DNA of 64,000 nucleotides from Tetrapyrgos nigripes. Lineage: Eukaryota; Basidiomycota; Agaricomycetes; Agaricales; Campanellaceae. The notes beneath the pieces were generated by a model. It did no database searches. It saw only the letters and a program-made list of their open reading frames with translations, and was not told where the DNA came from. The stretch lies in NCBI GenBank assembly GCA_013368315.1, contig JAACJM010000108.1, positions 1 through 64,000 on the forward strand, read 5' to 3'. How positions within the stretch are numbered: position 1 is the first letter of the stretch; every line of letters begins with the position of its first letter. Positions 16,035 to 64,000 of this stretch are shown piece by piece. Both the position numbers and the translations under genes were made by a program.

Positions 16035-16151
16035 CGACGCCAGCAGGATTCGAACCTGCGCCCTCAAAGAGGAACAGATAGAGTCTAAAGTTGAACAAAT
16101 TCATTCATGCCAAATTCTAATCTGTCGCCGTAACCACTTGGCTATAGCGCC
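16035..16151 (-). tRNA. tRNA-Ser (anticodon AGA), intron-containing
   Basis: The minus strand starts GGCGCTA, which pairs with the 3' acceptor strand TGGCGTC (discriminator G). The D arm is GCC..GGC, the anticodon stem is ACAGA/TCTGT, and the loop starts TTAGAA, giving anticodon AGA. An intron of roughly 35 nt follows position 37. The long variable arm folds as CCTC-TTT-GAGG, which with the T arm GCAGG-TTCGAAT-CCTGC marks a type II serine tRNA. No CCA is encoded, as expected in a eukaryote. Confidence 0.88.
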
Positions 16152-44833: not shown

Positions 44834-47312
44834 ATGGACCGCCATATCTTCGAGGATCACGTCACCAATGCCATTGTCATACGAGCGCTGAAAGGACTCG
44901 TTGCTTCCCATCCAACTCTGGAGCTCTTGGAGCCCATCAAGACTGTTATCGACAAGGACTACGAGAAAGGCAAGGTTGTTACTATTTCTGGTGGAGGAGC
45001 AGGTTGGTGTCCTCATTCTCGCTCTCTTTCACGTTTGCTTATCGGTATTCTGCAGGACATGAACCAGGCTTTGCCTCCTTCGTCGGCCGCGGTCTTCTTA
45101 CCGCTGCAGTTAGTGGAGATGTATTCGCGAGTCCCAGTGCTAAGCAAGTTTATGGAGCTGTCAGAGCGCTACCGAGTGAACGGGGAACCATCTTAATCAT
45201 TACGAATTGTGAGTTATTGTTTGCTCTCTTGTCTCCCCGCCCACTGACACTTTTTACCCAGATACCGGTGACAATCTCCACTTTGGACTTGCATGCCAAC
45301 AAGCCCGAGCCGATGGGATCCAGAATATCGCTATTCTCCCCGTTGGAGATGACGTCTCAGTAGGGAGAACCAAAGGCGCACTTGTAGGCCGAAGGGCAAT
45401 GGCTGGGACGATGCTAGGTTCGTTGTTATATCCTTTTTCTTTTCCCATCAAGCTCATATTATATATGATATACTCCAGTTTGCAAAATCCTCGGCGCCGC
45501 CTCAACAGCGGACTGGTCATTTTCCGAGACGCTTGCGCTCGGTAATGCCTCTGTGGATGGCCTAGCGAGTATTGGATGCACGTTAGGTCATTGTCATGTC
45601 CCAGGACGAATTGGAGGCGGTGGATACCCACTCGTTGAGAAGGACACGGTTGAGATTGGGTTGGGGTTACATAATGAGCCGGTGCGTCTTGATTGTCTTT
45701 TTTGATCTCATTTTTTACAATGTGTTGCACAAGATACTGACGTGCTTGTCATCAACAGGGAATGTGGACCGTCTCTCCTCAACCTTCAACCACTGACCTC
45801 GTCTCGCGCATGCTCAAGCTCATTTTGGAGCAGACAGATCCGAAAGATCGTTTGTACCTTTTGAAAAGGGCGACAGGACGGTATTGTTGGTCAACAACAT
45901 GGGTGGAGTTAGTGTTCTGGAGATGTGGGCAGTCGTTGATGAGGGTGAGCTTTCTTTTTTTAATCCTTTTCTTTTATGTCGTCCACCTCGTTCTCGTTCT
46001 TAACGCGCATATATTTGGCAATATCTGACCTTCCTTATCATCGGTTCTCCACAGTCCTCGACCAACTCGAATCCACCTCAAAACACACTCTTGTCAAAGG
46101 CGAATCCGGGCTTGTCGTTGAACGAATTTACTGCGGTCCCTTCCTCACCTCCCTCAATGCCGTCGGTTTCTCGGTCACCGTTATGAACCTGACGCACACA
46201 GCGAGGGTTTATAACGCTTCCATCGCCTCCGCCTCCTCTTCATCGTCTTCATCATCCCCGAAGGAAATGATCCAGACGACCTCCTCGCGTTACTCGATGC
46301 CAAACATACCACTGCTGCGTGGCAGAACACTACGGTGTATACGCGAGAGAAGAATGGATTAGAGAACAGGACGAGGGCAGAGAAGGTTGTTAAGGATGCT
46401 CCTGGGGTAACGGTTTCTGCATCCAATGGTGAAAGCAGTCATAAGGAAGATGGACCAAAGTTAATAGGTGAGTATATGCGTTAGTTCGTATGTTGTATCG
46501 TCTTCGGTGCTGATCCTTTTTTCGTTTATAGTAACACCCGAGAAACTACGAAACATCATCAAATCTGGTGCTGAAGAGGTGTTGGGATCTGAGCCTGATT
46601 TGACGAAGTGGGATACGGTGAGATTTACAGCTTCTCTTGCCCATCTTTTAGGACGAAGAGCTAACTGGGCTTTGGGGGTAGATTGTCGGAGATGGTGATT
46701 GCGGTGAGACGTGTGCCGCAGGTGCCACCGCCGTGTTGAAAGCACTTGATGAAGGGCTCGGCAAAGACGGGGACTTAGTGAGCGTTTTAAGGGAGTTGAC
46801 CGAGATCGTCGATGGTGAGTCATTTTCATTGGTAGTTGGCTGCCACAGAACACATACTGACATGTTTTTCAACAGACACATGCGGCGGTACCCTCGGTGC
46901 CATCTACTCCATCTTCCTCGCTGCTCTCACTGCCGAAGTCCGCAAAGAATCCGTCGCATCACCCAACATTGAGGTTACTGTGGACATGTCCTTCTGGGGT
47001 CGTACCGCAACAGCGGCCATCGAAACCCTAAAACAAAGCACCAAAGCCCGAGTAGGTCATCGGACAGTCATGGATGCCTTAATTCCGTTCATTGAAGGAT
47101 TACATACTGCGGGATCGGAAGGAAAAGGATTTCAGGAAGCTGTGGAGACATGTAGAAAGGGCGGAGAGGGAACGAAGGAGTTGAAAGCCAAGTTGGGAAG
47201 GGCAACGTATGTGGGTGAAGGGAATGCAGGATCTGAGGGTGGATTGCCGCCGGATCCCGGAGCGATGAGTTTGGTGAGGTTGGTTGAGGGTATGGGGAAG
47301 GTTTTGCTCTAG
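44834..47312 (+). CDS. Dihydroxyacetone kinase (DAK), ATP-dependent
   Basis: Phosphorylates dihydroxyacetone to DHAP (glycerol and formaldehyde detoxification pathways). Nine exons: 44834-45002, 45056-45208, 45262-45417, 45479-45681, 45759-45944, 46055-46467, 46532-46617, 46682-46814 and 46876-47312. DhaK domain: VVTISGGGAGHEPGFASFVG, RGLLTAAVSGDVFASPS, NYTGDNLHFGLA, LGHCHVPGR and GLGLHNEPGMW with the substrate-linking His. DhaL domain: WDTIVGDGDCGET (Mg-ATP binding Asp residues) and DTCGGTLGAIYSIFLAAL, then DMSFWGRTATAA and TKARVGHRTVMDAL. Total exon length is 1936 nt, two short of a multiple of three; single missing bases near 45849 (before FVPFEKGDRTVLLVNN) and near 46256 in a C run (before EGNDPDDLLALLD) account exactly for this. 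Probably assembly errors in a functional gene. Confidence 0.9.
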
Positions 47313-47428: not shown

Positions 47429-49593
47429 TTACATCGCATGTAGCTCCCTCAAGCTATGAATCATCTCTTTCACTCTCTGAGAACGAGGTTTGATGCTACA
47501 TTTGAAAGGAAGTGGGTAGCTTTACGGGTTCCGAATATTAGCTCGTTTCAATCAGGTCAAGCTTCAAATATCCTTACCCGAGCATCCCAGAAGTATACTC
47601 TCCACTCGGTTCAACGACCTTCCCATCCTCATCCACGGCCTTCGTTACATCAAAGCATGCTAAGATGCATGTAATCGCTATCCAAATGGAGGACAACGCC
47701 ATCTCATTACCAGGGCACTGCCGTTTGCCGAATCCAAATGCTGCATCAGGAAAAGCAACACTCGCATCCAGGAATCCGTCTTTTAGGAAGCGTTCCGGGT
47801 TAAACAGGTGTGTATTCGGTCCGTATATGGACTCGTCGTGAAGGATTGCCCTTAAGTGATTTAGTGCCAGGACCGGGGCCAAAGCTTTTCACTCACCATG
47901 AATTGCCCACCACTGTTGCACCCGCTGGGATGTAATATCCTTTGTATTCATCGTCTTCGATACTGCGATATGGTATGCCTTCAAACATCTTGAGCTCGAG
48001 AAGGATCACAACGGACGCAAAGCATGTGCTCACTCAACGGCGTAACTGGAATCCATCTTAGTACTTCCCTCAAGATAGCGTCAAGATAGGGAATAGATCC
48101 AAAATCTGAGAAATCAGGCAGTCGGTCCAGTCCAACGACTTCGTCAATTGCCATTTGTCCTTTCTTTTGGACCTCAGGATTCCTCACTAACGCCAGGATA
48201 AAGGTTCCCAGTGCAGAAACAGTCTGCGGATTTGATTCAGTGGCCAGGTCCAAGTAAAATGCAGATCAGAGGACATACTGTGTCAGAACCAGCTACACAG
48301 TGTCATGGTAAAAGCCGACTCAACTTTGGTAGAGGATAAGAACCCTTACCTGCATACATCGATGCGAGAACACCCTTCAAAACCCTCTCAGCTTCCAGGT
48401 GATCGATATTCGTTGAGGACTCCGACGCCAACCTTTCAAGAGATCGACTAGCGATAGAAGGCACGAAGTTTCCTTTCGTCTACATATGCAGAATGGAAGT
48501 TATGAGCCATGGTTCCTATGACCACTCGCTTAAATGAGAACGCACCATAGCTTGCTTAACAGAATCAAACGTTATGACCGGCATCGCGGAAACAACTTTA
48601 TTCCATTGCTTAGCTTGTGCTTTGAAGCCTGAACCAGGGAACCAATTCGGGACGTGTTTCAGAATGGGAATCTGATCCACTAGGTAGGATCCTGCGTTTG
48701 CTGTACATGCCATCGCGTGCAGGCTCTCTTCCGCAATCTTGACGTACGGGTCGTTTTCGGCTTGCGCGTCGATGCTATATGCCATTGAGAGAATGGTAGT
48801 TCCGGCCATGCTAAGCGGTCAACCAACTTGATAAGCTCAAGACTATCTCCGGCTCTAAAAGGCTTACAATCGCAAATGATTGAGAAAGTCCTCCGGCTTT
48901 TCGAGTAAGAGCACGAGCAGTTTCTGGGTTGCGGAAACCATGACAGGTCTATACTGTAGCAATGCTCGAGGATTTAGTTCTTGATGGAAAACTTTCCGAG
49001 CTTCTATTGCAGAATAGTTCAGTTTGGGCCTTTAAGAATATCACTGCAGCACTGACTTCTCCACTCCTTTCCATAAGGCATGAAAGCAAGATGCCAAGTG
49101 AAGCCCACCCTAACAAACGGAATCAGGCTGAAGCTTTCAATAGAGCGGAATTTGGAACAAACAGTTCATTCAGCATTGTGAAGCGAGGCCTGGGCCAAGT
49201 CTATGGTGATCAACCGGATAATGAAGACTACCCAAAGCACATACCTGTCTGAGTAATTGGAGGATCGCTTATGTAGAAGCTCAGTCGCTGTTTCGAGGGA
49301 ATTGAGGACAATGAGTGGTGTTCCACACATGTTCAAATGAATAACGTCTGAGCCTGAGCAATGTACTCATCAGTATATTGAGATATGACTGAAATTGCGT
49401 GTATCTGACCGTATTCCCTGGACATATCCCTGTACTTGATCCATTCTCCCTCCGAAGGAATATCTAACACGTTTCCAATGATTGGGTAGGCAGGAGGTCC
49501 GGGAGGCAGACGTCGGCGGTATTGCGCCAATCGCTTCAGTATGAAGATGGAAACTAGCAGAGCGAGGATATTCGAGATATAGTTGCCCGGCAT
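47429..49593 (-). CDS. Cytochrome P450 (P450-2), apparently intact
   Basis: Membrane-anchored P450 of the same subfamily as P450-1 and P450-3. Exon 1 (from 49593) has the anchor and hinge (RRRLPPGPPAYPIIGNV). Further exons: DVIHLNMCGTPLIVLNSLE, PRFTMLNEL, VGFTWHLAFMPYGKEWR, KVFHQELNPRALLQYRP, TTILSMAYSIDAQAENDPYV, SGFKAQAKQWNKVVSAMP, NFVPSIASRSLERLA, AGSDT joined to TVSALGTFILALV (the helix-I Thr), ILREVLRWIPVTPL (ExxR), GYYIPAGATVVGNSW, GPNTHLFNPERFL and the heme loop FGFGKRQCPGNEMA. The last exon YPLPFKCSIKPRSQRVK ends at a TAA at 47429 after an intron of about 58 nt. All joins I tested keep phase, although the donor after REYG is GTCAGA, a weak match. Substrate unknown. Confidence 0.85.
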
Positions 49594-50049
49594 GACGAGA
49601 TCGAAGCGTGACGAAAAGCCTGGCGCAATAGTTAGCTCTACCGCTAGGAAGTTGAGAAAATAGGCTCACTGTTGGCAGGGCTAGCGATGGATAGTTTCGT
49701 TGGGAGTTAAGCGACAGTAGTACGGTTGCCGAGCAGTATGTAGGTTTTTGGCCCGAACAAGGCTCAAGCATCGAGGGACTAAGCTTATTCAGTGTTAGTC
49801 GACCTGACGTCAATTACAGCGGTTTGAAAAATTAATGACACTTATTGCTCCTATCAAGTGTTCACAAAATGAAAGACCAGAACGGAGCTCGTCTTATGTT
49901 GGTCTTATGCAGAAAAACCCCTAAGTTACTCATGTTATTCAATCTAGGGCTTGGGGACTCGACTTAGAGAATCCGAGATAGCCAGATTCTTTCAGTGTGC
50001 CGCCAGCCTGAGATAAAGGATATAGATACGAAAAGATAGAAGCTTAGTG
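49594..50049. other. Intergenic between P450-2 and P450-3
   Basis: Presumed promoter of P450-2 (minus) downstream of P450-3. No coding or repeat signal. Confidence 0.45.
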
Positions 50050-50155
50050 TTACAGGGAAACATCCTTCGCGGTATGTATCATCTGCTCTGCTTTGTAAGA
50101 CCGAGGTTTAATGCTACACTTAAAGGGCAGTGGATAGCTGTAGACAGCAGAAGAG

Positions 50156-50685
50156 CAAGGGGTACCCACTTTCTTACTGCCGGACATCACCTTCATTTTC
50201 GGTCATAAGGCCTGACCCCCTCCCCCCCCCTCCCCCCTCTCCTTCCTTTTATGGAAGGTAGTATGTAAGCAAAAGTTACATAAGCTTACCTCATCTCCCC
50301 AACCCCATCATCAACGCTCTTTTGACTCATATTTTACTGCACTAAAAGTGTGTATACATGCTCTTTTTGTCCCTATTTAGATTGTACATATGCTGACCTG
50401 CATTTTTCTTACACTTACTGCCATGATGTCATGCAGTACAAGTCACATGGTTGCAATGGAACGGTCCAGCCTCCTTCTAGATTTGGTTTCTCAGCTAACA
50501 GAATGAGCCTAGATGCTGTTTTTGTCTTCATTTTATGCTTTTAGCAAGTCTTGTACTGAATGGAAGGCTCTTACAGGTCATCCAAGTGCTTATTACATAG
50601 CATGTCACTTTGGGTCATAAGGACCCCTACACCCCCCCCCTCCCCCCAAGGTGATGTCAGGTATTAAGGTTCTGGGTACCCCTTG
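50156..50685. mobile_element. hAT-type MITE, 530 bp, in the last intron of P450-3
   Basis: Perfect 13-bp terminal inverted repeats CAAGGGGTACCCA / TGGGTACCCCTTG extend imperfectly to about 45 bp (GACATCACCTT on both). Flanked by an 8-bp target duplication CAGAAGAG (50148-50155 and 50686-50693). Both subterminal regions carry C-rich runs (about 50216-50240 and 50629-50647). Removal restores a normal intron of about 65 nt ending CTGTCTACAG. Confidence 0.88.
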
Positions 50686-51188
50686 CAGAAGAGTATGTCA
50701 TCAATTTCGTCCATCACAAAGTAGTAGGCTTCATCCTTACCATACAGCACCAGTAGTATACTCCACGTTTGGGTCAATCTCATTCCCGTCCTCGTCTACA
50801 GCTCGAGTTACATCAAAGCACGCTAGGATGCACGCTACCGCTATCCACATGGCTGAAATCGCTAAATCTTGACCACCGCAAAATCCAAGAGAGCCGTCCT
50901 CTTGTAGAAAGCGTTCTGGGTTAAATAGGTGAGGATTTGGTCCATATACTGACTCGTTGTGAAGCATTGCCCTGGCAATATTACCATCAAGTCGCGCTCA
51001 TTGGACCACTCTTGCACAACTGTCACTCACCAATAGGGAACAGTACGGGTATCCCGCAGGTCAAATTTTCTGACCCGTACCCGTACCTGCCAAAACCCGT
51101 ACCCGTGATGACGGGTCAAGGGTAGCAGCGGGGCAGACGGGTCAGAAGCAAAACCTGCGGGATACGGGTATATGCCGGGTACATTTAT

Positions 51189-54100
51189 CTACATATCACT
51201 GAGTACGTCTACGATATCATTGTAACCCTCTGGCATCTCAATATCCTCTGTGTTTTGATCACTAACCTCAATCTCTGGTAGCTTTGCAACGGTCATTACA
51301 TCCTCATCTTGTATAAGCCCCATCAAACTCCATTGCCGAAGGCACATAAGAGCGCGTGTTGTATCAGCAGAAAGCCGATTGCGAACATAGGGTAGAAGGA
51401 ATCGGCCCCTACTGAATACACGCTCAACGTCCGTCGAAGTTGCTAGAGGTAATATTAATTAGACAAGATATATGAGTTGAAGATAGTGAACGCACCGGGT
51501 ATAGTCCAAGGGGGTCCGGACCGGGAAATCCCATACCGGGGGTTGGTAGGTAGGTTCCTCTGGAGGAGGCGAAAAATTTTTTTTTGACCCCCCCGAAAAT
51601 GCGCCTTAGAACAATTTTTCGCTCACTGTTGGCAGTAATACATGTTGTTCACAATGCATCTAAGGTCTGATAATACTGCTTTGACCACGTTGCAGTCAAT
51701 TTTTTGTTGAAGGTTCCGCAAAGCTTCTGACTAGCACAGCAGTTCAAATAATTGATGTAATCATAAGTCACATGCTATTGCTATATTAAGCAGGTAACCT
51801 ACTATATAAGGAAGGTAAGGTAGGTAGGTTCCCTTGATGGGGGCGCAAATTTTTTTTCCGACCCCCGGTATAATTTAATTCTTTTTGGACTCCCTTGGTA
51901 TAGTCAGGTAATCCAGTCCCATACGATAAAGAGTAGGGAAATCTTTCTTCCCTCCATACCACCATCCGAGAACGTCGTCCATAGCTTCAACGTCTGCGCT
52001 GAGGTAACGATCAAGCTCATCACCAAGCTCGCCTGCCTTAGGGGGTTTAAGTGCCGGTAAATCATCGAAACGATTATGCTTCTATGTAAAGATGAGTAGC
52101 CTAGCCGTTAAGTCGAATTGACAAACTCACCTTCGACGCAACAGGTGAAGCAGGCTTGTCAACGTCCATCGGCTCCTCACCACTGGTGTGCTTGTAGTCT
52201 CTATCATATACCTCCTGTACCATTTCCTTCGCAGTCGCAACCCAAGAATCAGGCCAGTCAGCGGTATTGAAATAATTAAGCTTGTGGCGTGGATGTAAAA
52301 CTGTTTTGCATGAGTACTGTCAATACAATAATAATGTAGGACTCAGGGAGGGTTTACTTACTCATAGCGACACGATACACCTCAGAGTAGTCGAATTTTC
52401 CGTAATACTTGTTCAGGGTCTTCTTGGCCAGTGAGACGGCAGCATGTATAGCAGGATCAAACTTCGAACTGAGGCCCATTTCTGTGAACCGTCGGTCTAT
52501 GTCATCGAGGACAGGAAGCACTGTTGCTAGGTTTGGTGTGTTGCAAGAAGAGAATAAGAGCGTAGCATCTCGAAGAACCTGCAAGATTATGAAAGAAGGG
52601 GTCAGAGTCAGAACGCTTAGTCAGAATTCCGCGGAACGAAAACTGACGTCAAGAACCTCATACAGCTGCTCAGCTATCGCCCATTCTTTTTTGCTCAACG
52701 CGTACTGCTGCAATCCGTTGTCTTCCTCGTTGCCAGTAATAGCACGATATGCCTTTTTGTGCTCTTTGTCGATACAATAGCCCAGCAAGTCACAAGTCGA
52801 ATTCCAACATGTAGAGACATCACGTGGAATGACAGTTTGAGGCTGCTTTCTCTCTTCGAGGATCGACCGCCATTGAGGGAGAAGGATGGTGGTAGAGTTG
52901 ATAATCTTGAAGGATGTTTTTTGGAACTGGAAACTATAGTGAGTATGCTTTTCATCTGCAAGTCTCGTCTTACCTTGACTAAAACTTGCTGGACTGGAAT
53001 AATCTGCTTTCGCAGTTCTTCCTTCTCCTCCTCCGACAAGCCCTCCATCATGTCGACAATGAGCTCTTGGCTGTCTTTCTCCTGCTCTCCTCCCTCCTCG
53101 ACTTCCCTCAAACGGGCCTGCAAATCTTCCATGTCCACGCCAGTTGCCAAATCCATCAGAGCCTTTTCAACGTCGTCCATATCTTCCACTTTCTTGCTTG
53201 ATGTTACATCAAACAACTTCGTCAAGCTTTTACCAACTAAATTGATGATATGATTAAAGCAACGAGTCCGGTTTGGTTCCCCAGGGAAGTCAGGAAGAAG
53301 TGTCTCAAGTGCAGATATCATGGTGTCGTTGGATGAGGCATTGTCTGCTGTAATACTGAAAATCTAGGGTGCATAGTGAGCATAGATAATTTGAGGTTGG
53401 AAGCATGTACTAACTTTGTCTTCAATTCCAAACTCCATCAGTATTCCAGCGAACACTTCAGCCAGCTTTTCACCACTGTGAGACTGAAGAAGACTGTGAG
53501 TACTGAGAACATCGTAGGTTATTGTGGAACTAACTGTTGCAACCTCAACAAAGTCTAGTAGAAAACTCAATGGTTCGCCGTCATGCTCCAAATGAACTGT
53601 CACTGCGATATATGCTCGGTGATTTGGTGAGCTCCATGTGTCCGTTGCAAAGTTTATGTCACCTTCATATTCCTTTTTCTCTTTTAGATTAACAATCCAG
53701 ACGAGCAGTTCTGGTATACACACCTGCAACATGGAAGCAATCCGCCGACAAGTCTTTGCAAAGACCATTTTGACATCTCGGGCTACAGTCATTGGATGCG
53801 GTAAGTAGTAGCCAGGTCTGCCTGTCTTCATGAGGCACTGAAAACCTCTGTCCTTGACTATAGCGAATTGCCGACCACTCTCAGCTACCCAGCGGACAAT
53901 CTCCGCCCTTAGAGACAATCAGATCTGAGCATTGTAGAGAGGACATCGACATACCTTGTCTCCCATGATGTATGTTGGTGATGACTGTACGTGACTATTC
54001 CCTTCTTTCCACGCTTAAACACTGCACTGATAGTCCCATCCCTCAAGTACCCTGCAGCAGCCTTTCGTGCATCGCCAACCTTCAACCCCTGGACTCCAGT

Positions 54101-54957
54101 CAAAGCTGCTGGTCCCCAAGCTTTACATTTGTTGATGTGGTTGTGTAACGTCTTTGTTCCTTTCGCATCTGTTGTGTCCTGGAATCGCCGAATTATGCTT
54201 CGGCAAGAAGGTGCGCTACACTTGAATACCTGACACTTGCGACCATTAATGTATTCGATAGTTGGGACAGGTTCGAAGAATGCGTAAACCTCGGAGTTCC
54301 AGCCCTTCATCAAGCGTTCTGTTTTACTGTAAGTACTAATGTTTGTTGATCAGGAGCAGATAAATACTCATGCAACTCTGCCTCGTTGGACTCCTCTTGC
54401 ATATGCTCATCTTCAGTGGTACTAGTCTTGTCGTTGTCAGTGTCGGCATCATCGTCATTGTCACTGTCATCCTCGATGGTGATCACATTGGCAGCCTTGG
54501 AGTTTTTTGCAGGAGCTGCTTCGGGTTGGGGCTCATTGTCACTCCCACTGTCATTAGATTCCTGTAATGTATGTAAATAAGCTGCTCAATACATTTGCCA
54601 CCAGAAAGTAGACAAAATTTACCTCATCTTCTGATACAGTGGTCCTTGCCTTTGACTTCCACAGTGCTTGCTTGATTTTATTGGTGGCAGCTTTTATAGC
54701 TGTTTTTGGGGTGGACTTTGCTTTCTTCGGAGCAGTTGAACTGCTTGTGTTCGGAGTCTATGAAGCTAATTGAGTATGCGGCTATAGGATTTAATTAACG
54801 TTGGACTCACGTTAATGGTGGCGGTCCTGGGCTTCTTTGATGGGAGCGTAGAATCAATTGGGTCGTTGCCGGTGGCTTTGACAGTAGGGTTGGTCTTCCG
54901 CTTTTTGTCCGTAGTTTGCAGATGCTGTGGAACAGGTGGCTCAGGGTGAGGTGCCAT
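51189..54957 (-). pseudogene. hAT transposase, disrupted by nested element
   Basis: Multi-exon transposase. Start at 54957 (MAPHPEPPVPQ; an in-frame ATG at 55014 precedes a poly-Lys tract from a T run). Domains in order: basic Pro-rich N-terminus, acidic Ser/Asp region (about 54530-54370), BED-type zinc finger with QVFKCSAPSCR and TLHNHINKC (about 54240-54140), the DDE/RNase H-like core (NFATDTWSSPNHRAYIAVTV, about 53660) and its helical insertion (TRCFNHIINLVGKSL, DVSTCWNSTCDLLGY), and the C-terminal dimerisation domain (ATSTDVERVFSRGRFLL, YVRNRLSADTTRALMCLRQW) ending at the TAG at 51189. Introns are small. A 393-bp insertion at 51506-51898 separates GLDYLTI from the P-ATSTDVER junction, so this copy cannot make full transposase. 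Confidence 0.85.
51506..51898. mobile_element. 393-bp non-autonomous element nested in the hAT transposase exon
   Basis: Ends CCAAGGGGGTCC and, in reverse complement, CCAAGGGAGTCC, with further similarity at ATACCGGGGGT. Flanked by a 6-bp target duplication TATAGT (51500-51505 and 51899-51904). Inside, GTAGGTAGGTTCC followed by a T/A-rich run and GACCCCC occurs twice as a direct repeat (about 51549 and 51818). No ORF. Removal restores the transposase reading through to the next intron donor. Confidence 0.8.
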
Positions 54958-56098
54958 TGAGAGAGGAAGAGGAGAAGGTTTTTTTTTTTTTGTTGTTGCT
55001 ACAGTACATCTCATAGGTATGTGACTATGTACGAGTCTGGTAAACTATACAGTTTCTAAATTTTCAAAGGTAGTGCCGACAGCGGCGGTCCCCAGTACTG
55101 GCGGGTCTGATTACCCGTGCGGCGGGTCGCAGGTTTGATGCGGGTTGATAAAACCTTACCCATACCCGTACCCGTCAAACCCGTACCCCCTGACCCGCCA
55201 ATTACCCGTGAACCCACGCTATTCCCTACTCACCAAGCATTCCCAACTACAATTGCACCTCCAGGGATGTGATACCCGTTGTATTCGTCGTCTTGAACAC
55301 TTTTACGAGGTAAACCTTATTGTTCAGAGGTATATCAACTTGGGACTGTAACGCGAATAGAGATATGCTTACTCAAAGGAGCGACTGGAACCCATCTAAG
55401 GGCCTCGGGAATGGAACCAAAATCCGAGAAATCAGGAAGTTGTGCACCTCCGGTCCTTTGTTCAACAGTTATTTGCCCTTTCCTCAGAGCGTTGGGGTTC
55501 TTGACTAGTCCATGAATGAATGTTCCTAGAACTGAGACGGTCTAGGGAGTAGAGAAGGTAAGCCATCACGTCGGCGAGTAAATCAGGGGAAAAAAAGATA
55601 CCTAAGACCGTATCAGAACCACCTGCGCGTGACATCGGTGCTTTTCTCAGTTGTTATCCCAACAGTTAAGGGTGAATAAGGTCTTGCCTATGTACATTGT
55701 TGCTAGGACAACTTGTACTACTTTCTTAGGCTCTGGTTGACGGTGTGTCATTGACGAGGGTTCCGATGCTATTTTCTCCAGAGAGCGGCTAGCGACCGAA
55801 GGAATGAAGTCGCCTTTGGCCTAGATACAATATAAGATTAGCAAAACAGGTTACTACTCAACCAACTGGCCATGTGTCCAAAAGGCACTCACCATAACCT
55901 CTTTAACGAATTCCAGAGGAACAACCACCATTGCATAAACATCTTTATTCCACTCCTTGGCTTGACACTTGAAGCCAGCACCAGGGGCCCAGTCTGGGAT
56001 ATGCTTCAGAAGAGGAAGTTGATCCACTAGATATGATCCTGAGTTTACGGTACATGCTATGGCTTGCATTGCTCTTTCGGCGATCTCGATGAACGGGT

Positions 56099-56382
56099 TG
56101 TTGAGCAGGCTATGTTCTATATACGTAGCGGCAACTGCATACTTACCTGGGGATGTAGAAGTGCTTGTTAGAGCAGTTTGTTAGAGGTTAAGAGCGATGA
56201 GTGTTAAGGGAAATCCTTGTTCTTGTAGGGCAATCTACGAGCCCTTATATACTGTTCTAGATAGTACATGTGACTACTTATCTAAGAACTTCTAATGTAC
56301 AGTAAGCGTAACTAACTAGATTACTATCTAATCTATATCTAATCTAGTGTTGATGGCTGCTTACTAATTCGCCAATTCAACA
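56099..56382 (-). repeat. 3' LTR of the copia element
   Basis: 284 bp, starts TGTTGAGCAGG on the plus strand and ends CCAATTCAACA. Identical by eye to 62382-62665. Confidence 0.95.
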
Positions 56383-56391
56383 CTCCCCCTT
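56383..56391 (-). promoter_or_regulatory. Polypurine tract of the copia element
   Basis: Reads AAGGGGGAG on the minus strand, directly before the 3' LTR; expected primer for plus-strand DNA synthesis. Confidence 0.75.
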
Positions 56392-56505
56392 GCTAAGCTG
56401 CACCGTTAGTGTGCGTAAGCATAAAGGCGCTTATAAGCAGCCGAGGTTCATCTTCGTTATTTGAGATACATTGTACCAAGGTTCTATGATACGTTATACC
56501 AAGGC

Positions 56506-59500
56506 TCAACTAGTATAAAACTGAAGTCCTAGTTGTGATCTAAACTTCTTGAATTTTTGTCTGCCAAGGTTCTTTGTAAACATATCAGCAGGATTATCGC
56601 TTCCTTCTATGAACTTTATTGTTACGTTCTTGTTTGCTACATGTTCACAGATAAAATGATACTTGACAGCGATATGTTTTGAACATCGTTCTGTAACTGG
56701 ATTGGATGCGATAAATATAGATCCTTGATTGTCCCCATAGATATCGATAGCTTTCATCTCGATGTTAAGTTCTTTTAAGAGAGCTTTTATCCAGATAACT
56801 TGGCGACTACAGTCACTAAGTGCCATATACTCAGCTTCAGTAGAACTTAACACAGTTGTGGTTTGAGCTCTGGAGGCCCAGTAGAAAGTTCCACGGGCCA
56901 ACGTTAGGAAGAAGCCAGTATGTGATCGATGATCGTTTGGGTCTGATGCCCAGTCAGAGTCTGTGTATGCAGCGAGACCAGTTCCTAATGGATCTGATTC
57001 AGTGATCTTTTTCTTGGATCTGTCATACACTAATGCGTAGTGTCGAGTACCGAGAAGGTAATGGCAAATCCAGAGAGCTTTAGCTAGATGATCATCTGAA
57101 GGGTTTGCAGCGTGCTGTGCCATTTTGGTAACGGCAAAGGCTATGTCAGGACGAGTTCCTAACATGATGTAAAGAAGAGACCCGATGACAGTTTGGTATT
57201 TCTGTCGAAGGACTGGGTCGACTTGGGCTTTGTTTTTTATAGGATAATATCCTGCAGGTAATGGAGTAGCAGAAGCTTTCGCGTTTTGCATACCACATCG
57301 TTCTAGTACCTTCTCAAGGTAGGCGCATTGATCAAGATAGATTTTGCTGCCTTTCCTGACGATGTTCATTCTAAGAAATTCTTTGGCATCGCCAAGATCC
57401 CTGCATTCCCATTTCTTCATAAATTTCGCCTTCAATTTGAGCACTAGCTGTTTGTCTGTTCCACAGAATAAGGCATCATCAACGTAGACAACGGCAATGA
57501 CAATGTAACCGTTTTGATTATATACGAAGATTCCGGCATCAGAGTTGATTCGCTTGAAACCAAGTTCTGCCATGGACTTGTCGAGACCTTTCCACCAAGC
57601 AAGACCGGCTTGCTTAAGTCCATATAGAGCGCGAAGTAGCCGAATGACTTTGCGTTCTTTTCCAGGTTCTATAAAACCTTCCGGTTGTTCCATATAGATC
57701 TCTTCTTCGAGTATGCCATAAAGATAGGCACTACGAACATCGACACCTGAGATGTGCCAATTATTGAGGGCTGCCAATGTGAAGACTAGGCGCACCGTCT
57801 TGAAGCGAACAACTGGAGAGAAGACTTGATCGAAGTCTAGACCTTCAATCTGTGAGAAACCTTTAGCGATGAGTCTCGCCTTCTTATGACCATCAGTTTT
57901 GATGTCAAAGACCCATCGGTTTTTTATGACTTTCCTATTCTCAGGACAATCTACGAGTTGGAAAGTTCTGCGCCTGCGAAGTACCTCTAGTTCTTCACGG
58001 CAAGCGATTTTCCATTCCTCTTGCTCCCTATCTGGTAGGAGCGATATTTCTCGGAGTGTCCATTCGCAGGGAGATTTAGAGTCAATTGCATTATTAAGCA
58101 AGAGATTTATCATCTGTACTCCCCCTTCCCGGCATAGTTGTGCCTGATCTTCTAAAAGATCGTTTCCATCTGTATTAGATGCAGAATTCTCATTGTCTGA
58201 TGTGGACGAATGTGGCTTGAGACCTTCATCAGCGTCTCCTGAGTCACTTTGTCCTGTGGAACTAGGACCGGGATCCTGTGGTTCTGCAGCTGCAGTCCCG
58301 TGTGGCTGGTTTAGCTGTCGCCATGCCTCACGTTCTCTTGCGGCTCTATCAGTGTCGCGTTTATCAGTTGCGACCTGTCTGTCTGCATCGCGTGCACGCA
58401 CGCCAGGGGGCCGAGTGCTTCCCTGTCTCCAGGCTTGATTAGAGTCTGGTACAAATGTTTTTGGTGCTCTCCTGTCACGTTGGGTTCGTCTAGGTGCAGG
58501 AGGCAGATTTGGTGATTGCCTTGGTCGCCTCGGAGGTGTCTGTGGAAGCTGTGGTGGTGTTCCAGGTTCAGATTCAGATCTCGGAGGCGGCGTTTCCAGT
58601 GGCGATTTCCGCGGACTCTGTCTGTCAGCATCGTCATGCCGAACATCAGGTCTCCTTTTGGAAGGTGCGTTGGTAGGTGTGTAAAAATGTTTGTCTTCAT
58701 CTTCGCCGAACATTTGAGGAGTATCCTCATTAGGATCGTTTGGGACGTCTTTCGACGTTATAGGAAGTCGTTTGGAGTTTGTTGTGCTTTTGTCACATCG
58801 AGGAAACAAAGTTTCATCGAATACTGCTTGTGGTGCAATGAATTTTGCATTGTTCTTTCTCATGAATAGATCACCATGTCCGCCTGGGGCAGGACCAAGA
58901 TAGGTCATAAGTTCTGTTTTGGAAGCGAGTTTGTTCTTTCGAATTTTCGCTGGAACGTAGACATACGCTCCGCAGCCAAGTACACGTAAATGGTCCATAT
59001 GAGGCTTTTTCTTTTCCAGAACTTCATATGGTGTTATCCAGTCATGTCGCCGCATCGGAGTGCGCATATACAAATACACTGCATGTGTAACACAAAATTC
59101 CCACCAGCTATCAGGAAGACACGCGTGTTTGCGCATCGCCTCAGCCTTATCCATTATAGTGTGCATGAGGCGCTCAGCACGACCATTTTGTTGGGGGGTG
59201 TATGGTGCGCTTTGTAGGATCTTGATGCCTTTGTCTTTCAACATTTCGATGAAGGCACCTTTGATATATTCTCCCCCTGCATCAGACATCCATTGTTCGA
59301 CTTTAGACTTGTATTGGTTTTCAACCATGGCGAGCCATTGGCGAGTTACATGCACTGGCATTTTCTTATTGTTCAATAGAAAGGCCCATGCGTTAGATGT
59401 AAAGTCGTCCAAGAAGATTATCATGTAATTGAATTTATGATACAATTCAGTGGGGAATTCTTTGAGATCCGAATGGATTAATTCAAAGGGACGCGACGCC

Positions 59501-62055
59501 CGTCTTTCTGATGGTGGGTAAACTTGTTGTGGTGTTTTACCTTCGAGACATCCGCAGCAAATAGGTGGTTGTAAAGGAATATTGAATTCAGGCCAGCCGT
59601 CGGTATGTGTTCGAAGATGTTTGAGAACATCACGAGAAGGATGACCAGCACGTTGGTGTGCTAAGTCAAAGTTGATTTCGTAAATCATAGCATCTGCCAA
59701 GGAGGCGACGTTAGTTTTAGTGTGAGGAAGATAGTAAATGGTATCTTCTGGTGATCGTTTGGTAAATGTCATCCATCGACGACGCATTGCGTTTCCATCT
59801 ACATCTGTCATTTTGTCATGTTTCATCAACATGATCATTTTGTCTGATCCATGAACTGTTACTCTGTCTGACTGTAGAAATGTGCCAAGTGACAGTAACT
59901 GTTGATTTAGATCGGCAACGTAGTAAACAGGGGCAACTTTGAAGTAGCGAGATCCCTGTTGTATGATGACGGTACCAGCGGTGTTGGTTTTGGTAACTCC
60001 ATTTGCAGTTTGAATGGAGATTGGATCTACTTTATGTGACTCAACAAAATTGGTCAAGTCAAAAGTATAATGAGCAGATGCTCCAGAGTCGAGTAACCAG
60101 GCATTTTCATAATGTTTCTGGTTGATGAGAGTGTTCTTTCCCTTGCAATTCACACAAGATGAATAATAAGTTCCACAGGGACATAATATATTTGGTACAT
60201 TATAAATAGAGGGGCTAATAGAGCCCAGAGGAGCGGTATGTATAAATATGTTACAAGCATGTGATAATAATAATTCACATGCGACCGGGCTCATCATCTG
60301 CACTGTATGGGATGTGTCAGATACTCTATTCACAATGGAAGAGAAAGAGGGTGCGGCGTACCTGTAGTATCCGCCATCATTCCAACCCTCAGAAATAATC
60401 TCCTCCTCGGAGTCAGGTCCGAGGGATATAACGTCCATATCCGGAGAACTTGATGGTGGTGTTATGAGGTCTGGTATCAAGTCGGCATCCTCGTCGGCAC
60501 CCGAGTTGAAAGCACTGGGGGACATGGAGATTTCCTCGAATAAGGGGGTAACCGACTGCGCTTGGCTCCACCCCGATGAATTGGAGGCGCTCATCTGGTC
60601 GAGGTCCCCATCGATTTCCTCGAGGCCCTCGTTGTACTCCCTGTCGAACTCCCCTGAATACCACCTTTGAGTCATCTCGTTGGTGATCATATGCATACAC
60701 TCCTCGAGCATTCTGTGGTTGGGGTCGACGTTCTCCTTGTCAGAATCCCCCATGTCGACGAGACCGGCCTCCCACATTCTGAGGCGCTTGGTGGATTCCT
60801 CCTCTTCCTTTTCGAACTCCTCCGAGTTCATGCTCCCCATGTTGGAAATGAGGCTGTCCAATAGCCTGTCATCCTCCTCGGCCATTTCGGCGTCGTCGTC
60901 CGTTCCCATGCACTTGTTGTGTTTCCACCCGAAGTTGTTCCACGCCTCCTCAGTTGGCTTTATCCCATCGTTACGAGCAGTTTTAAAGGCATTCTGGACA
61001 GATGAGAAAAATCTGTCAAAAGGCTTTACCGACTCGCTAAAGAAGGGTTTACGCACATCGTTGGTAGATGGCTCCGTGACCGTAATGGTCGGAGTTTCCT
61101 TGAAGAATTTTGCTGCATGTATGATGTGTGAGTGTCCTAACTTAATAGGACCCATGCTTTGAGCTTGTTGCTTCTGGCGTGTTTGTTCACCGGTGCATTT
61201 TCCGCGGCCTCGCCAGTTACCACGTCCTCGGCCTTTGCCTCTCCAAGCGCTGCTGCTGCCTTTATGGTGCTGCTGCTGCTGTTCCTCGAAGACAGGAGGT
61301 TTGCCTTTGCATTTGATCGCCGTGATTTTGGTAGCGTTAGCAGATTGAGGTTTCTTTCCGCCACGAGCTTCCCAAGTGTTGACAACCTGAGTACGAAGAT
61401 CATCGAGGGATCCATCTTCGAAGGCGTCAATGTCGTCCTGAGTTTCTTTGGCAATGACATAGCCATAGATATCAGCGGGGAGTTTGTTGATAACGATCAT
61501 ATATTGGAGATAGAGGGGAATGGCCGTATTTACGCCAGCGTTATTGATACGAGTGAGGTACATTTTGATGAGATCAATAGCGGCGCCAGGATGAGTGTTG
61601 CGAGGGATCTCGACGTTCATGGCACATTTGAAGTTCTGAAAGATTTCAGCAGCTCCAGGTTTACCATAGAGATCTTTGAGAGTTCCCCACATTCTTCTGG
61701 CGGTAGTGATATCCTCAAGTTTCATACCAATGGCCTGAGAGACACGAAGTTTGATAACTCCCATGGCCTTATCGTTATCTTTGTCCCAATCGATAGTGCT
61801 ACCGGTGGCAGCGGCAGTAAAATGGGTAGGAGAAGCTTCTTCATCGGTTGCTCCTGCAGCGGCACCAGCAGTGGTACCAGCAGGGGCAGCGGGAGCAGGA
61901 GCTGGAGTAATTTCGATATCTCCGGGACAAGGGGTATTGAGGACATATGCAATGCCCTGAGATTGAAGCCAAGATTTGGATTTGCTGGCCCAAAGGGTAT
62001 AGTTCGGTCCAGTAAGTTCTGGAACGGTGGACATGAAGCTTGATCCAGAAGACAT
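56506..62055 (-). CDS. copia gag-pol polyprotein, 1849 residues, intact
   Basis: One frame from ATG at 62055. Gag: LTGPNYTLWASKSKSWLQ (about residue 15) to about 240, then an Arg/Gly-rich tract (GKGRGRGNWRGRGK, about 273-286) where a CCHC zinc knuckle would be expected; none is present. An acidic Ser-rich region (about 340-620) ends with CPCGTYYSSCVNC (625-637). Protease: WLLDSGASAHY (Asp about 656). Integrase: zinc-binding H-x4-H (about 800-805) and CCGC (about 833-836), then catalytic Asp in HSDLKEF (about 863), Asp in SDAGGEY (about 925) and Glu in NGRAERL (about 961). A Pro/Arg-rich linker (1100-1300). Reverse transcriptase: RWVFDIKTDG, DVRSAYLYG and the active site YVDD (about 1524-1527). 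RNase H: AYTDSDWASD, STEAEYMAL, GDNQGS (about 1697-1780). All catalytic residues are kept, so it may be active. Confidence 0.95.
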   Translation of the reverse strand: MSSGSSFMSTVPELTGPNYTLWASKSKSWLQSQGIAYVLNTPCPGDIEITPAPAPAAPAGTTAGAAAGATDEEASPTHFTAAATGSTIDWDKDNDKAMGVIKLRVSQAIGMKLEDITTARRMWGTLKDLYGKPGAAEIFQNFKCAMNVEIPRNTHPGAAIDLIKMYLTRINNAGVNTAIPLYLQYMIVINKLPADIYGYVIAKETQDDIDAFEDGSLDDLRTQVVNTWEARGGKKPQSANATKITAIKCKGKPPVFEEQQQQHHKGSSSAWRGKGRGRGNWRGRGKCTGEQTRQKQQAQSMGPIKLGHSHIIHAAKFFKETPTITVTEPSTNDVRKPFFSESVKPFDRFFSSVQNAFKTARNDGIKPTEEAWNNFGWKHNKCMGTDDDAEMAEEDDRLLDSLISNMGSMNSEEFEKEEEESTKRLRMWEAGLVDMGDSDKENVDPNHRMLEECMHMITNEMTQRWYSGEFDREYNEGLEEIDGDLDQMSASNSSGWSQAQSVTPLFEEISMSPSAFNSGADEDADLIPDLITPPSSSPDMDVISLGPDSEEEIISEGWNDGGYYRYAAPSFSSIVNRVSDTSHTVQMMSPVACELLLSHACNIFIHTAPLGSISPSIYNVPNILCPCGTYYSSCVNCKGKNTLINQKHYENAWLLDSGASAHYTFDLTNFVESHKVDPISIQTANGVTKTNTAGTVIIQQGSRYFKVAPVYYVADLNQQLLSLGTFLQSDRVTVHGSDKMIMLMKHDKMTDVDGNAMRRRWMTFTKRSPEDTIYYLPHTKTNVASLADAMIYEINFDLAHQRAGHPSRDVLKHLRTHTDGWPEFNIPLQPPICCGCLEGKTPQQVYPPSERRASRPFELIHSDLKEFPTELYHKFNYMIIFLDDFTSNAWAFLLNNKKMPVHVTRQWLAMVENQYKSKVEQWMSDAGGEYIKGAFIEMLKDKGIKILQSAPYTPQQNGRAERLMHTIMDKAEAMRKHACLPDSWWEFCVTHAVYLYMRTPMRRHDWITPYEVLEKKKPHMDHLRVLGCGAYVYVPAKIRKNKLASKTELMTYLGPAPGGHGDLFMRKNNAKFIAPQAVFDETLFPRCDKSTTNSKRLPITSKDVPNDPNEDTPQMFGEDEDKHFYTPTNAPSKRRPDVRHDDADRQSPRKSPLETPPPRSESEPGTPPQLPQTPPRRPRQSPNLPPAPRRTQRDRRAPKTFVPDSNQAWRQGSTRPPGVRARDADRQVATDKRDTDRAAREREAWRQLNQPHGTAAAEPQDPGPSSTGQSDSGDADEGLKPHSSTSDNENSASNTDGNDLLEDQAQLCREGGVQMINLLLNNAIDSKSPCEWTLREISLLPDREQEEWKIACREELEVLRRRRTFQLVDCPENRKVIKNRWVFDIKTDGHKKARLIAKGFSQIEGLDFDQVFSPVVRFKTVRLVFTLAALNNWHISGVDVRSAYLYGILEEEIYMEQPEGFIEPGKERKVIRLLRALYGLKQAGLAWWKGLDKSMAELGFKRINSDAGIFVYNQNGYIVIAVVYVDDALFCGTDKQLVLKLKAKFMKKWECRDLGDAKEFLRMNIVRKGSKIYLDQCAYLEKVLERCGMQNAKASATPLPAGYYPIKNKAQVDPVLRQKYQTVIGSLLYIMLGTRPDIAFAVTKMAQHAANPSDDHLAKALWICHYLLGTRHYALVYDRSKKKITESDPLGTGLAAYTDSDWASDPNDHRSHTGFFLTLARGTFYWASRAQTTTVLSSTEAEYMALSDCSRQVIWIKALLKELNIEMKAIDIYGDNQGSIFIASNPVTERCSKHIAVKYHFICEHVANKNVTIKFIEGSDNPADMFTKNLGRQKFKKFRSQLGLQFYTS

Positions 62056-62369
62056 TTCAAATGTGATCTGGGGATATAATCAAACTGTCAGCATAACATC
62101 CTATATGCAAGATAAGCGGCGGCGTTAAGGACGCGCCATAAAATAAATGAAAAGCTGTGGCTAGCGCGCTTATGACAGTGATTATTCCCGGTGTGCCTTA
62201 TACCAGCTTGCAGCCATGTAGGTGCTACTGAGCACATACAGCAGCCATGAAGGCGCATGTAAAGAACTTCTGCCACAAAGGGCGATGTTCAAGCAGCCGC
62301 AGGGGCGCTACCAGGTATTACGCAGTCTAGGACTTGCTGCCAGTGATGGCGCGATGTCCAGGGCTTGCG

Positions 62370-62381
62370 GGGCCCATAACC
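62370..62381 (-). promoter_or_regulatory. Primer-binding site, initiator-tRNA-Met anticodon-loop type
   Basis: Directly adjacent to the 5' LTR; the minus strand reads GGTTATGGGCCC. The plus strand GGGCCCATAACC equals the anticodon stem-loop of eukaryotic initiator tRNA-Met (CAT anticodon inside), as used in half-tRNA priming by Drosophila copia and yeast Ty5. Confidence 0.75.
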
Positions 62382-62665
62382 TGTTGAGCAGGCTATGTTC
62401 TATATACGTAGCGGCAACTGCATACTTACCTGGGGATGTAGAAGTGCTTGTTAGAGCAGTTTGTTAGAGGTTAAGAGCGATGAGTGTTAAGGGAAATCCT
62501 TGTTCTTGTAGGGCAATCTACGAGCCCTTATATACTGTTCTAGATAGTACATGTGACTACTTATCTAAGAACTTCTAATGTACAGTAAGCGTAACTAACT
62601 AGATTACTATCTAATCTATATCTAATCTAGTGTTGATGGCTGCTTACTAATTCGCCAATTCAACA
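62382..62665 (-). repeat. 5' LTR of the copia element
   Basis: 284 bp, same sequence as 56099-56382. Should hold the element's promoter; a TATATAG/TATATACG pair lies inside but I cannot fix the start site. Confidence 0.95.
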
Positions 62666-62724
62666 CGGGTTGTTTTCAGGTTGCACCTCGATACCATAGG
62701 CAATTGAGAGAATGGTCGTCCTGG

Positions 62725-64000
62725 CCATGCTGTGTGGTCGTCATTCTTTCTCTCTGCGACTCTCTCAAACGTCCAATGGTAAAATTGGGTCGAGCCTTCG
62801 AGGATCGACATGATCCAGGACACTTAAAAACGATTCGGCGATTCGTCCGGCAGACTAGTAGTTGTTGGTTGGTACGGCTAGTGCTATTACTGTTATGACT
62901 GACTGCGGGTAGCAAGATGAGAATGGTTCAGACAGTCAGATAGTCAAATCTGAAATCTAAGATTAAAAAACACACATACCCAGTGTTCTGCCTGAGACTC
63001 TGCAATCTGTATCAGCAGCCTCAGCAGGCAGTTCTCGACTTCTCCTGCTTTATGCGTAGAAAGGTGTGAAGATCCTCGTCTGTGCTTATGAGATAATCCT
63101 TCAGGATAGTCTTGGGATACTGCACAGTACGCTCTTGCGCTCGCATCCAGATCATTTCCAAGCAATGCGGGGTGACAATATATCATGAATGAATTCTTCG
63201 TCACAAGTGTTTTGTGTGTTCCCATCATCTTCCGACACTGCGTTGGGTAAGAGTTGGTGGAGGATGGATGAAGTGTTGGTCGTGGCTGTGTTACCAGACA
63301 TCAAACGCGTTGGTGATACGCCTGAAATATTTCGACCAGGCTCAAAACACGTATTCTTCACTTATATGTGAGTTTATGTAGTGTACAAGTGTACAAATAA
63401 AGATTCCGACATTTCTACTCCACTATCTTCTATCAACCTCATAGTTCCTCAGATACTCAGAGACAACTTGTTTAATCCACCTTCTCAGAAACTCGACGGT
63501 GTCATATTCTGGCAAAAAAAAAAAGAAAGAAAGAAAGAGAGGATTATCAGCAGCCAAAAATGCAGAATATATGAGATGCCAAGAAGGATATACAAAATCC
63601 CAGGAAAAAAATTTGTTTGGCATAGCTGACCCAAATCTTCTCTTTCGCCCTCTTCCCATCCTCACTCAACACCCAATCACTCAGTTCATTCAGTTTGGAT
63701 TTCATCACAAACGCCTTTGAGCTTCTCAGCTTTTGCTTCTCTTTCTCGTTACCACCATCCGGGACGGCACCTAAACCAACTGCCTACTACCCCTCCTCCG
63801 CCGTAAATGCCATCAATAGAATCTTTTCCATCAGATCTAGCAATGGTCCAGGTTCCAGATTTCACCAGAGAGAGGAATGACAGAAGCGTGGGTTGACGGT
63901 GACGACAAGAACTGAGGGAGGAGTGTTAGGGAGACGAGAGTCTGACGTCTAACATCTAATTATTGCCCAGTCGATGCGTCCCGGAAATTTACATCCTGTG
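62725..64000. other. Unassigned 1.3 kb beyond the P450-3 break
   Basis: The expected upstream exons of P450-3 (such as those with PRFTM, MPYGKEW and VFHQE) are not found here on either strand. Short frames at 62944-63228 (minus) and 63381-63880 (plus) have no family motif. An A-rich run with GAAA repeats lies at 63514-63540. Confidence 0.45.

Follow-up and report, generated by a model that had tools for sequence, protein, structure and literature searches.

Transposons of the hAT superfamily (Ac, hobo, Hermes type) are known by an 8-bp target duplication, short end repeats and a Dimer_Tnp_hAT domain in the transposase; hAT-type miniature inverted-repeat transposable elements (MITEs) and deletion derivatives by their shortness, inverted ends, 8-bp duplications and many near-identical copies; and Ty1/copia retrotransposons by the order of rve and RVT_2, a copia-type gag, a 5-bp duplication and long terminal repeats (LTRs). 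For Hermes, a target preference of nTnnnnAn is described in the accessible part of its source (PMC10512250), and introners, in the accessible part of theirs (PMC9860276), are transposons that create introns. Here we analyze P450-3, a cytochrome P450 (P450) gene into which elements of the hAT and copia kinds have inserted. It lies in a window of 64,000 nucleotides (the whole stretch of DNA analyzed), which corresponds to positions 1-64000 of contig JAACJM010000108.1 (C105, 275,034 bp) in the 98.46-Mb assembly GCA_013368315.1 of Tetrapyrgos nigripes, a litter-dwelling agaric; all data are genomic sequence from a single strain. We put a probability of roughly 0.87 on the reading that P450-3 is a relic of a P450 family, marked by deletions, three primary insertions and one nested MITE. 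The kind is already well known, being a pseudogene in a duplicated P450 family combined with transposon nesting; what the locus would offer is a base-level record of a duplicated P450 gene that dies and then serves as a transposon landing ground. No paper on the P450-3 locus appeared in the literature listings searched, in which six papers name the species.

Insertions in P450-3 and their ends

P450-3 runs on the reverse strand and, numbered after the twelve-exon P450-2 model, retains exons 6-12, i.e., 1,369 bases within a 12,682-base span. Exon 6 survives in two stretches (62671-62729, 59 nt, before the copia element, and 55893-56098 after it), followed by exon 7 (55688-55820), exon 8 (55609-55622, 14 nt), exon 9 (55373-55541), exon 10 (55234-55315), exon 11 (50741-50971) and the C-terminal exon 12 (50051-50137, with the stop codon at 50048-50050). 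A first-pass annotation of this DNA had placed three insertions with clean target duplications in the gene, and all three duplications proved to be exact, with ends fixed by multi-copy families. It had also spoken of three different transposon types; counting the nested element, we instead assign the four insertions to two superfamilies (hAT-type three times, copia once) and four families, with both MITEs filed as hAT-type by duplication length and ends.

The copia element (56099-62665) sits, as first described, in a coding exon, exon 6, between copies of the target duplication CGGGT at 62666-62670 (the element's 5′ side) and 56094-56098. Its reverse-strand LTRs (5′ LTR 62382-62665, 3′ LTR 56099-56382, 284 bp each) have termini TG..CA (TGTTG..CAACA) and are identical (0/284 differences), which upholds its description as young. 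A single open frame of 1849 aa (56506-62055, reverse strand) encodes gag-pol, with rve at residues 854-954, RVT_2 at 1363-1599, and Retrotran_gag_2 just under the cutoff. Domain order, gag, duplication and LTRs are those of Ty1/copia, and nothing about the element is unusual. At least 40 LTR matches at ≥96% identity, both window LTRs included, were found among the 40 of 406 candidates scored; this and the MITE family counts below are lower bounds that include the window copy.

The hAT transposon (51034-55228, reverse strand, 4195 bp, ends TAGGGAAYAG) lies in intron 10, with its target duplication CTCACCAA beside exon 10 at 55229-55236 (TTG|GTGAG on the coding strand) and again at 51026-51033. 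This duplication covers the last 3 bases of exon 10 plus the donor GTGAG of intron 10, so the earlier placement of the hAT within an intron needs amending by three exon bases. The intron MITE (50156-50685, forward strand, hAT-type, 530 bp, ends CAAGGGGTACCC) is indeed in the last intron, intron 11, between copies of CAGAAGAG at 50148-50155, a few bases away from the intron's acceptor, and at 50686-50693; its family comprises at least 21 matches at ≥94%, one of them partial, among the 40 of 51 candidates scored. Both intronic insertions preserve the donor and acceptor letters. Within the hAT is a further MITE (51507-51897, forward strand, 391 bp, ends CAAGGG), with at least 40 near-complete matches among the 40 of 170 candidates scored. 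A nested element had been noticed before with TATAGT as its duplication; the element is present, but the duplication is the 8-bp GTATAGTC (51499-51506 and 51898-51905), of which TATAGT is merely a part. Because the duplication measures 8 bp once the end is set to CAAGGG, an end shared by both MITE families, the nested element is probably another hAT-type MITE. Both MITEs resemble described hAT-type MITEs and deletion derivatives in being short, with inverted ends, many near-identical copies and 8-bp duplications.

Fetched full copies of each family begin and end at identical bases, and exact 8-bp duplications flank 9/9 other intron-MITE copies fetched, 8/9 other copies of the nested element, and six of seven distinct deletion derivatives of the hAT. 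Since further genomic copies define where each element ends, chance is no serious alternative for the duplications. All seven distinct deletion derivatives retrieved for the host hAT have the nested-MITE site empty. In the paralogues the copia site is continuous and unoccupied, and the hAT target is present once and unoccupied in 10 of 11 paralogous loci, the eleventh (C270) holding another element. The octamer of the intron MITE is not visible in the paralogues, where the intron has diverged, so this site is placed by its duplication and family ends; with one duplication copy kept, intron 11 of P450-3 is still ~7 bases longer than in the paralogues.

Deletions, insertion order and the state of the gene

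As the first-pass annotation had held, the P450 is damaged beyond its insertions, and the insertions are independent. Its picture of one gene simply hit three times does not stand, because exons 1-5 and the 5′ flank of P450-3 are also gone. The joint of this deletion is at 62740-62742. Below 62741 the sequence is that of P450-3 intron 5, 11-12 bases before exon 6, whereas from 62741 up the window matches paralogue upstream sequence at 90%; that match lies 1138 bp from the first aligned exon 1 codon in C267 and 1532 bp in C157. By arithmetic, ~1.9 kb has been lost relative to C267, comprising exons 1-5 and ~1.1 kb of 5′ flank. Base 62741 is compatible with both sides, a single shared base such as end joining would leave. 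Exons 1-5 were not found in 62740-64000, which gave weak chance-level matches alone, nor from 64000 to the next P450 (~C105:64150-66330, L016), and we rejected the idea that a further insertion between 62742 and that gene had moved the N-terminal exons away. They are present in 10/11 paralogous loci; the eleventh, L020, ends within exon 6.

A complete P450 heme motif reads FxxGxRxCxG, and loss near ExxR or in the heme loop cripples a P450. Exon 9 of P450-3 carries a 21-nt in-frame deletion that removes 7 codons directly before the ExxR motif, and exon 11 a 45-nt in-frame deletion that removes 15 codons before the Cys and, with them, the start of the heme motif. Cys-x-Gly remains, so that the earlier description of the motif as deleted goes too far. 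Exon 11 still matches PF00067, and exon 9 searched alone gave no Pfam match. Set against Agaricomycetes P450s (PF00067), which P450-2 fits, P450-3 has two incomplete core motifs and no exons 1-5; it has neither the complete heme motif nor the complete N-terminal part expected of a functional cytochrome P450.

P450-2 (47430-49593, reverse strand) had been proposed as an intact paralogue and empty-site reference. It is open, with twelve exons and 517 aa, and matches PF00067 at 1.2e-63; its spliced product is identical over the full length to the public T. nigripes protein D9758_011875, and its named matches include P450s from Moniliophthora, Mycena, and other mushroom-forming fungi. As a reference it was set aside as too distant from P450-3 (synonymous divergence, dS, of 1.35), C188 (0.31) and C27 (0.33) being far closer; C267 (0.37), C233 (0.38), the upstream neighbor P450-4 (0.53) and C586 (0.55) fall between. 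No insertion-free allele of the P450-3 locus was seen; outside the locus, the exon 6-10 block finds at best an 82% match. Of 170 informative sites, 91 agree with C188/C27, 63 with C267/C233 and 16 with neither, in 59 runs vs. 75.6 in shuffles (0.4% of shuffles were equally low); this shortage of runs suggests gene conversion inside the P450 family. P450-4 itself (L016, C105:63120-66989) has all its exons but is interrupted by one in-frame stop (NPE*FLQ), and P450-1 (27928-30148, forward strand), the third paralogue in the window, has several in-frame stops by tblastn and is likely a pseudogene. Elsewhere, C157:166516-174173 and C267:5177-12444 share 97-99% identity across the 7 kb surrounding a P450 and differ by a ~330-base insertion; they may be either dikaryon alleles or a recent duplication.

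Private substitutions, counted against 9 other copies for each MITE, 8 for the LTR and 7 for the hAT, number 14/1051 in the hAT, 3/391 in the nested MITE, 0/530 in the intron MITE and 0/284 in the LTR. Among single other copies the counts are 1-10 for hAT derivatives (sum of both ends), 0-2 for either MITE and 1-4 for LTRs. The hAT differs from the intron MITE (p 0.004) and from the LTRs (p 0.003, the two LTRs giving 568 sites), and the nested MITE from the intron MITE and LTRs together (p 0.018); between hAT and nested MITE (p 0.58) the order is supplied by the nesting. Twelve of the 14 hAT substitutions are CpG transitions; this bias suggests an origin within the window copy itself and may reflect decay driven by methylation. 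Private substitutions and nesting together point to the hAT as the first arrival, followed by the nested MITE and then by the intron MITE and copia, the latter two unranked. Several points weigh against this order: the nested MITE compared with the intron MITE alone gives p 0.08, the 14 hAT substitutions include pre-insertion changes, and single derivatives reach 10 (L078), so that the window hAT exceeds the range of its family by little. The 19 private indel columns of the window hAT were partly produced by fixed-length slice cutting. Private substitutions give the 5′, ExxR and heme deletions no place in the order, and the earlier argument from a young copia and an already deleted heme motif does not by itself date the deletion.

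For coding changes, private sites were scored where the other six usable paralogues agree. L012, L015 and L019 were excluded for their broken frames, L017 and L020 as incomplete, and P450-2 for its distance; L016 stayed in despite its stop (17 nonsynonymous to 16 synonymous). In P450-3 the private changes divide into 20 nonsynonymous and 7 synonymous, a ratio not different from neutral (p 0.31), vs. 58 and 50 in the six other paralogues pooled (Fisher p 0.08). Because copia and the intron MITE are without substitutions, most of these changes should predate both, which supports damage to P450-3 before the youngest insertions, without amounting to proof for the hAT. Against this stand a relaxed-selection test that is merely suggestive at p 0.08, a ratio of 11 to 3 in L013 though its frame is unbroken, which shows that a high ratio is not peculiar to P450-3, and the absence of any stop or frameshift in exons 6-12 apart from copia. 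The frame is cleaner than in 4/10 other sequences (L012 with stops and a shift, L015 and L019 with shifts, L016 with one stop), as would fit a gene working until recently.

The foremost alternative starts from that open frame. P450-3 would have worked until copia hit exon 6, with the hAT and intron MITE tolerated through kept splice signals and the 5′ deletion coming last. The intact donor and acceptor letters at both intronic insertions (TTG|GTGAG plus the T of the hAT end; the pre-acceptor stretch of intron 11) agree with it, as does a ratio of nonsynonymous to synonymous divergence (dN/dS) of 0.28-0.38 to the four nearest paralogues. We nevertheless regard it as improbable: from what is known of the family, the ExxR-adjacent and heme-loop deletions would cripple the enzyme, the private changes run 20 to 7, exons 1-5 and the 5′ flank are missing, and intron 10 with the hAT exceeds 4.2 kb, vs. 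roughly 45-60 bases in insertion-free paralogues. Least credible is an assembly chimera, which would join pieces from separate loci and make coincidences of the duplications; identical LTRs, as in a collapsed repeat, and the apparent mosaic of two paralogue groups would suit it, but the four exact duplications fall at ends independently fixed by other copies, the P450-3 exons are ordered and in frame across every element, and in paralogues uninterrupted sequence runs through the empty hAT and copia sites.

In the favored reading, P450-3 is the relic of one member of a T. nigripes P450 family duplicated in tandem and elsewhere. One deletion took the 5′ flank together with exons 1-5, and the two short deletions that kept the frame impaired the heme loop and the approach to ExxR. 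By ordinary mechanisms, the 1.37 kb left over received the hAT at the intron 10 donor with an 8-bp duplication, a hAT-type MITE in intron 11, and copia in exon 6 with a 5-bp duplication; a second hAT-type MITE jumped into the hAT transposase gene and split its dimerisation domain. The sites, duplications, deletions, ends, minimum copy numbers and nesting are shown by the sequence. By inference, the gene would already have been dead or close to it when the youngest insertions arrived, and may accumulate insertions because no selection acts against them.

The host hAT and its nested MITE

The predicted transposase of the hAT lies in ~11 open pieces, its exons having been read by eye from these pieces, so that borders are approximate. 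Its dimerisation domain (PF05699, Dimer_Tnp_hAT) is found in two halves (4.1e-06 and 8.5e-05), the N-terminal half (profile 1-44) in the piece at 51899-52081, which is interrupted by the nested MITE, and the C-terminal half (profile 46-83) in the last piece at 51192-51458, both on the reverse strand. Five other exon pieces were searched and gave no convincing domain. The nested MITE is located in a transposase coding exon, directly before an intron that was also read by eye.

Duplication length, short end repeats and Dimer_Tnp_hAT ally the element with the hAT superfamily; it differs in its ends, TAGGGAAYAG, and in that its long, transposase-bearing relatives in this genome are 67-75% identical in DNA. 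A transposase exon of 184 aa finds its best long match in C240, at 67% over residues 4-136; shorter stretches reach up to 82% (C53, residues 4-70). With the right 3.3 kb as query, no other full-length copy was found among the 40 of 55 candidates scored, so apart from the MITE-broken window hAT no subfamily member with a transposase was found among those candidates. In eleven loci both end regions of the hAT are present at 95-99% and the middle is missing; these loci fall into two arrangements, of 4 and 7, and a single hAT end is present in three further loci. The window hAT may be the source of such derivatives. The broken copy raises the question of whether the subfamily has lost its transposase source while 11 middle-deleted loci persist. 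Related hAT copies in L068, L073 and L074 (C271, C459 and C387; 66-73% identical in pieces) share their flanks as well as the duplication CTCAGGAT, and probably go back to a single insertion that was copied along with the sequence around it.

The intron 10 splice donor in two paralogues

The element in the eleventh paralogous locus (C270:10277-14158, L017; locus positions 160-1499) is a 1,324-bp hAT-type element with ends TAGTGATGTGCGGGC, and it occupies the octamer CTCACCAG, exactly homologous to CTCACCAA at the intron 10 donor. In blastn at 1e-5 it matches neither the window hAT nor any of the 15 hAT loci compared, and it is a deletion derivative of an element found elsewhere at 99-100%, the type having exact 8-bp duplications in 7/7 other copies examined. 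In the near paralogues L018, L019 and L020 the site is empty, with flanks 93-97% identical. Because the C270 element is unlike the window hAT, its site is empty in near paralogues and it derives from an element found elsewhere, the two insertions are independent. Two near-identical copies of the C270-type hAT, each ~5.1 kb (compared at their ends), lie at C105:71141-76289 and 97812-102961 with duplications ATCATGGA and ATTGCATT.

Both duplications regenerate the donor, and in both elements the T of the initial TAG completes GTGAGT. Tolerance through preserved splicing is possible on these letters; that the intron 10 donor is a preferred, splice-tolerated hAT landing site, with the transposon carried as intron, we consider doubtful. 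Across 18 hAT-type targets, T2 and A7 fill 21/36 positions (p 7.5e-5 vs. an assumed 27%), and 17/32 without the two P450 sites (p 0.0015); the intron MITE family shares the excess (23/40). The twice-hit octamer itself conforms to nTnnnnAn. The excess recalls the Hermes preference, as far as the accessible part of PMC10512250 gives it, but A4 and T5 are nearly as common in the same 18 targets (18/36) and the nested-MITE family has no T2/A7 excess (22/74, p 0.34), both of which weigh against a neat Hermes-type reading. Donor targeting as a general habit was rejected: besides the two P450 sites, 1/73 targets is donor-like, with 0.21 expected. That count takes 40 of its targets as left-side octamers only and omits the MITE-2 copy L051, which has no duplication; since some MITE loci share flanks (L136-L138 have one flank, and CTAAGCAA occurs in three loci, once reversed), the effective number of targets is lower. 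By a rough hand estimate, for three hAT-type insertions in a 2.2-kb gene a coincidence among them has a probability of ~0.1% without target preference and ~2% with it, and the donor coincidence is partly selected because the C270 case turned up among paralogues of the first.

In the accessible part of PMC9860276, introners are comparable in that the target duplication supplies a splice donor, here in two independent cases (P450-3 and C270); they differ in that both elements lie in a pre-existing intron and created none. An introner identity for the two elements was rejected on that ground and on the scarcity of donor-like targets elsewhere. The twice-hit donor opens the question of whether fungal hAT insertions in genes survive mainly where the duplication preserves splicing.

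Other features of the window lie apart from P450-3. A frame with a DAK2 domain (dihydroxyacetone kinase type; 46836-47312, forward strand) adjoins P450-2, and an RVT_1 reverse transcriptase piece (4830-5492, reverse strand) is probably the remnant of a non-LTR element. NPHP3_N and ankyrin-repeat frames (9998-12219, forward strand) contain a 99-bp tandem repeat array and perhaps belong to a NACHT-ankyrin type gene, and a tRNA match of 117 bases (16035-16151, reverse strand) probably bears an intron.

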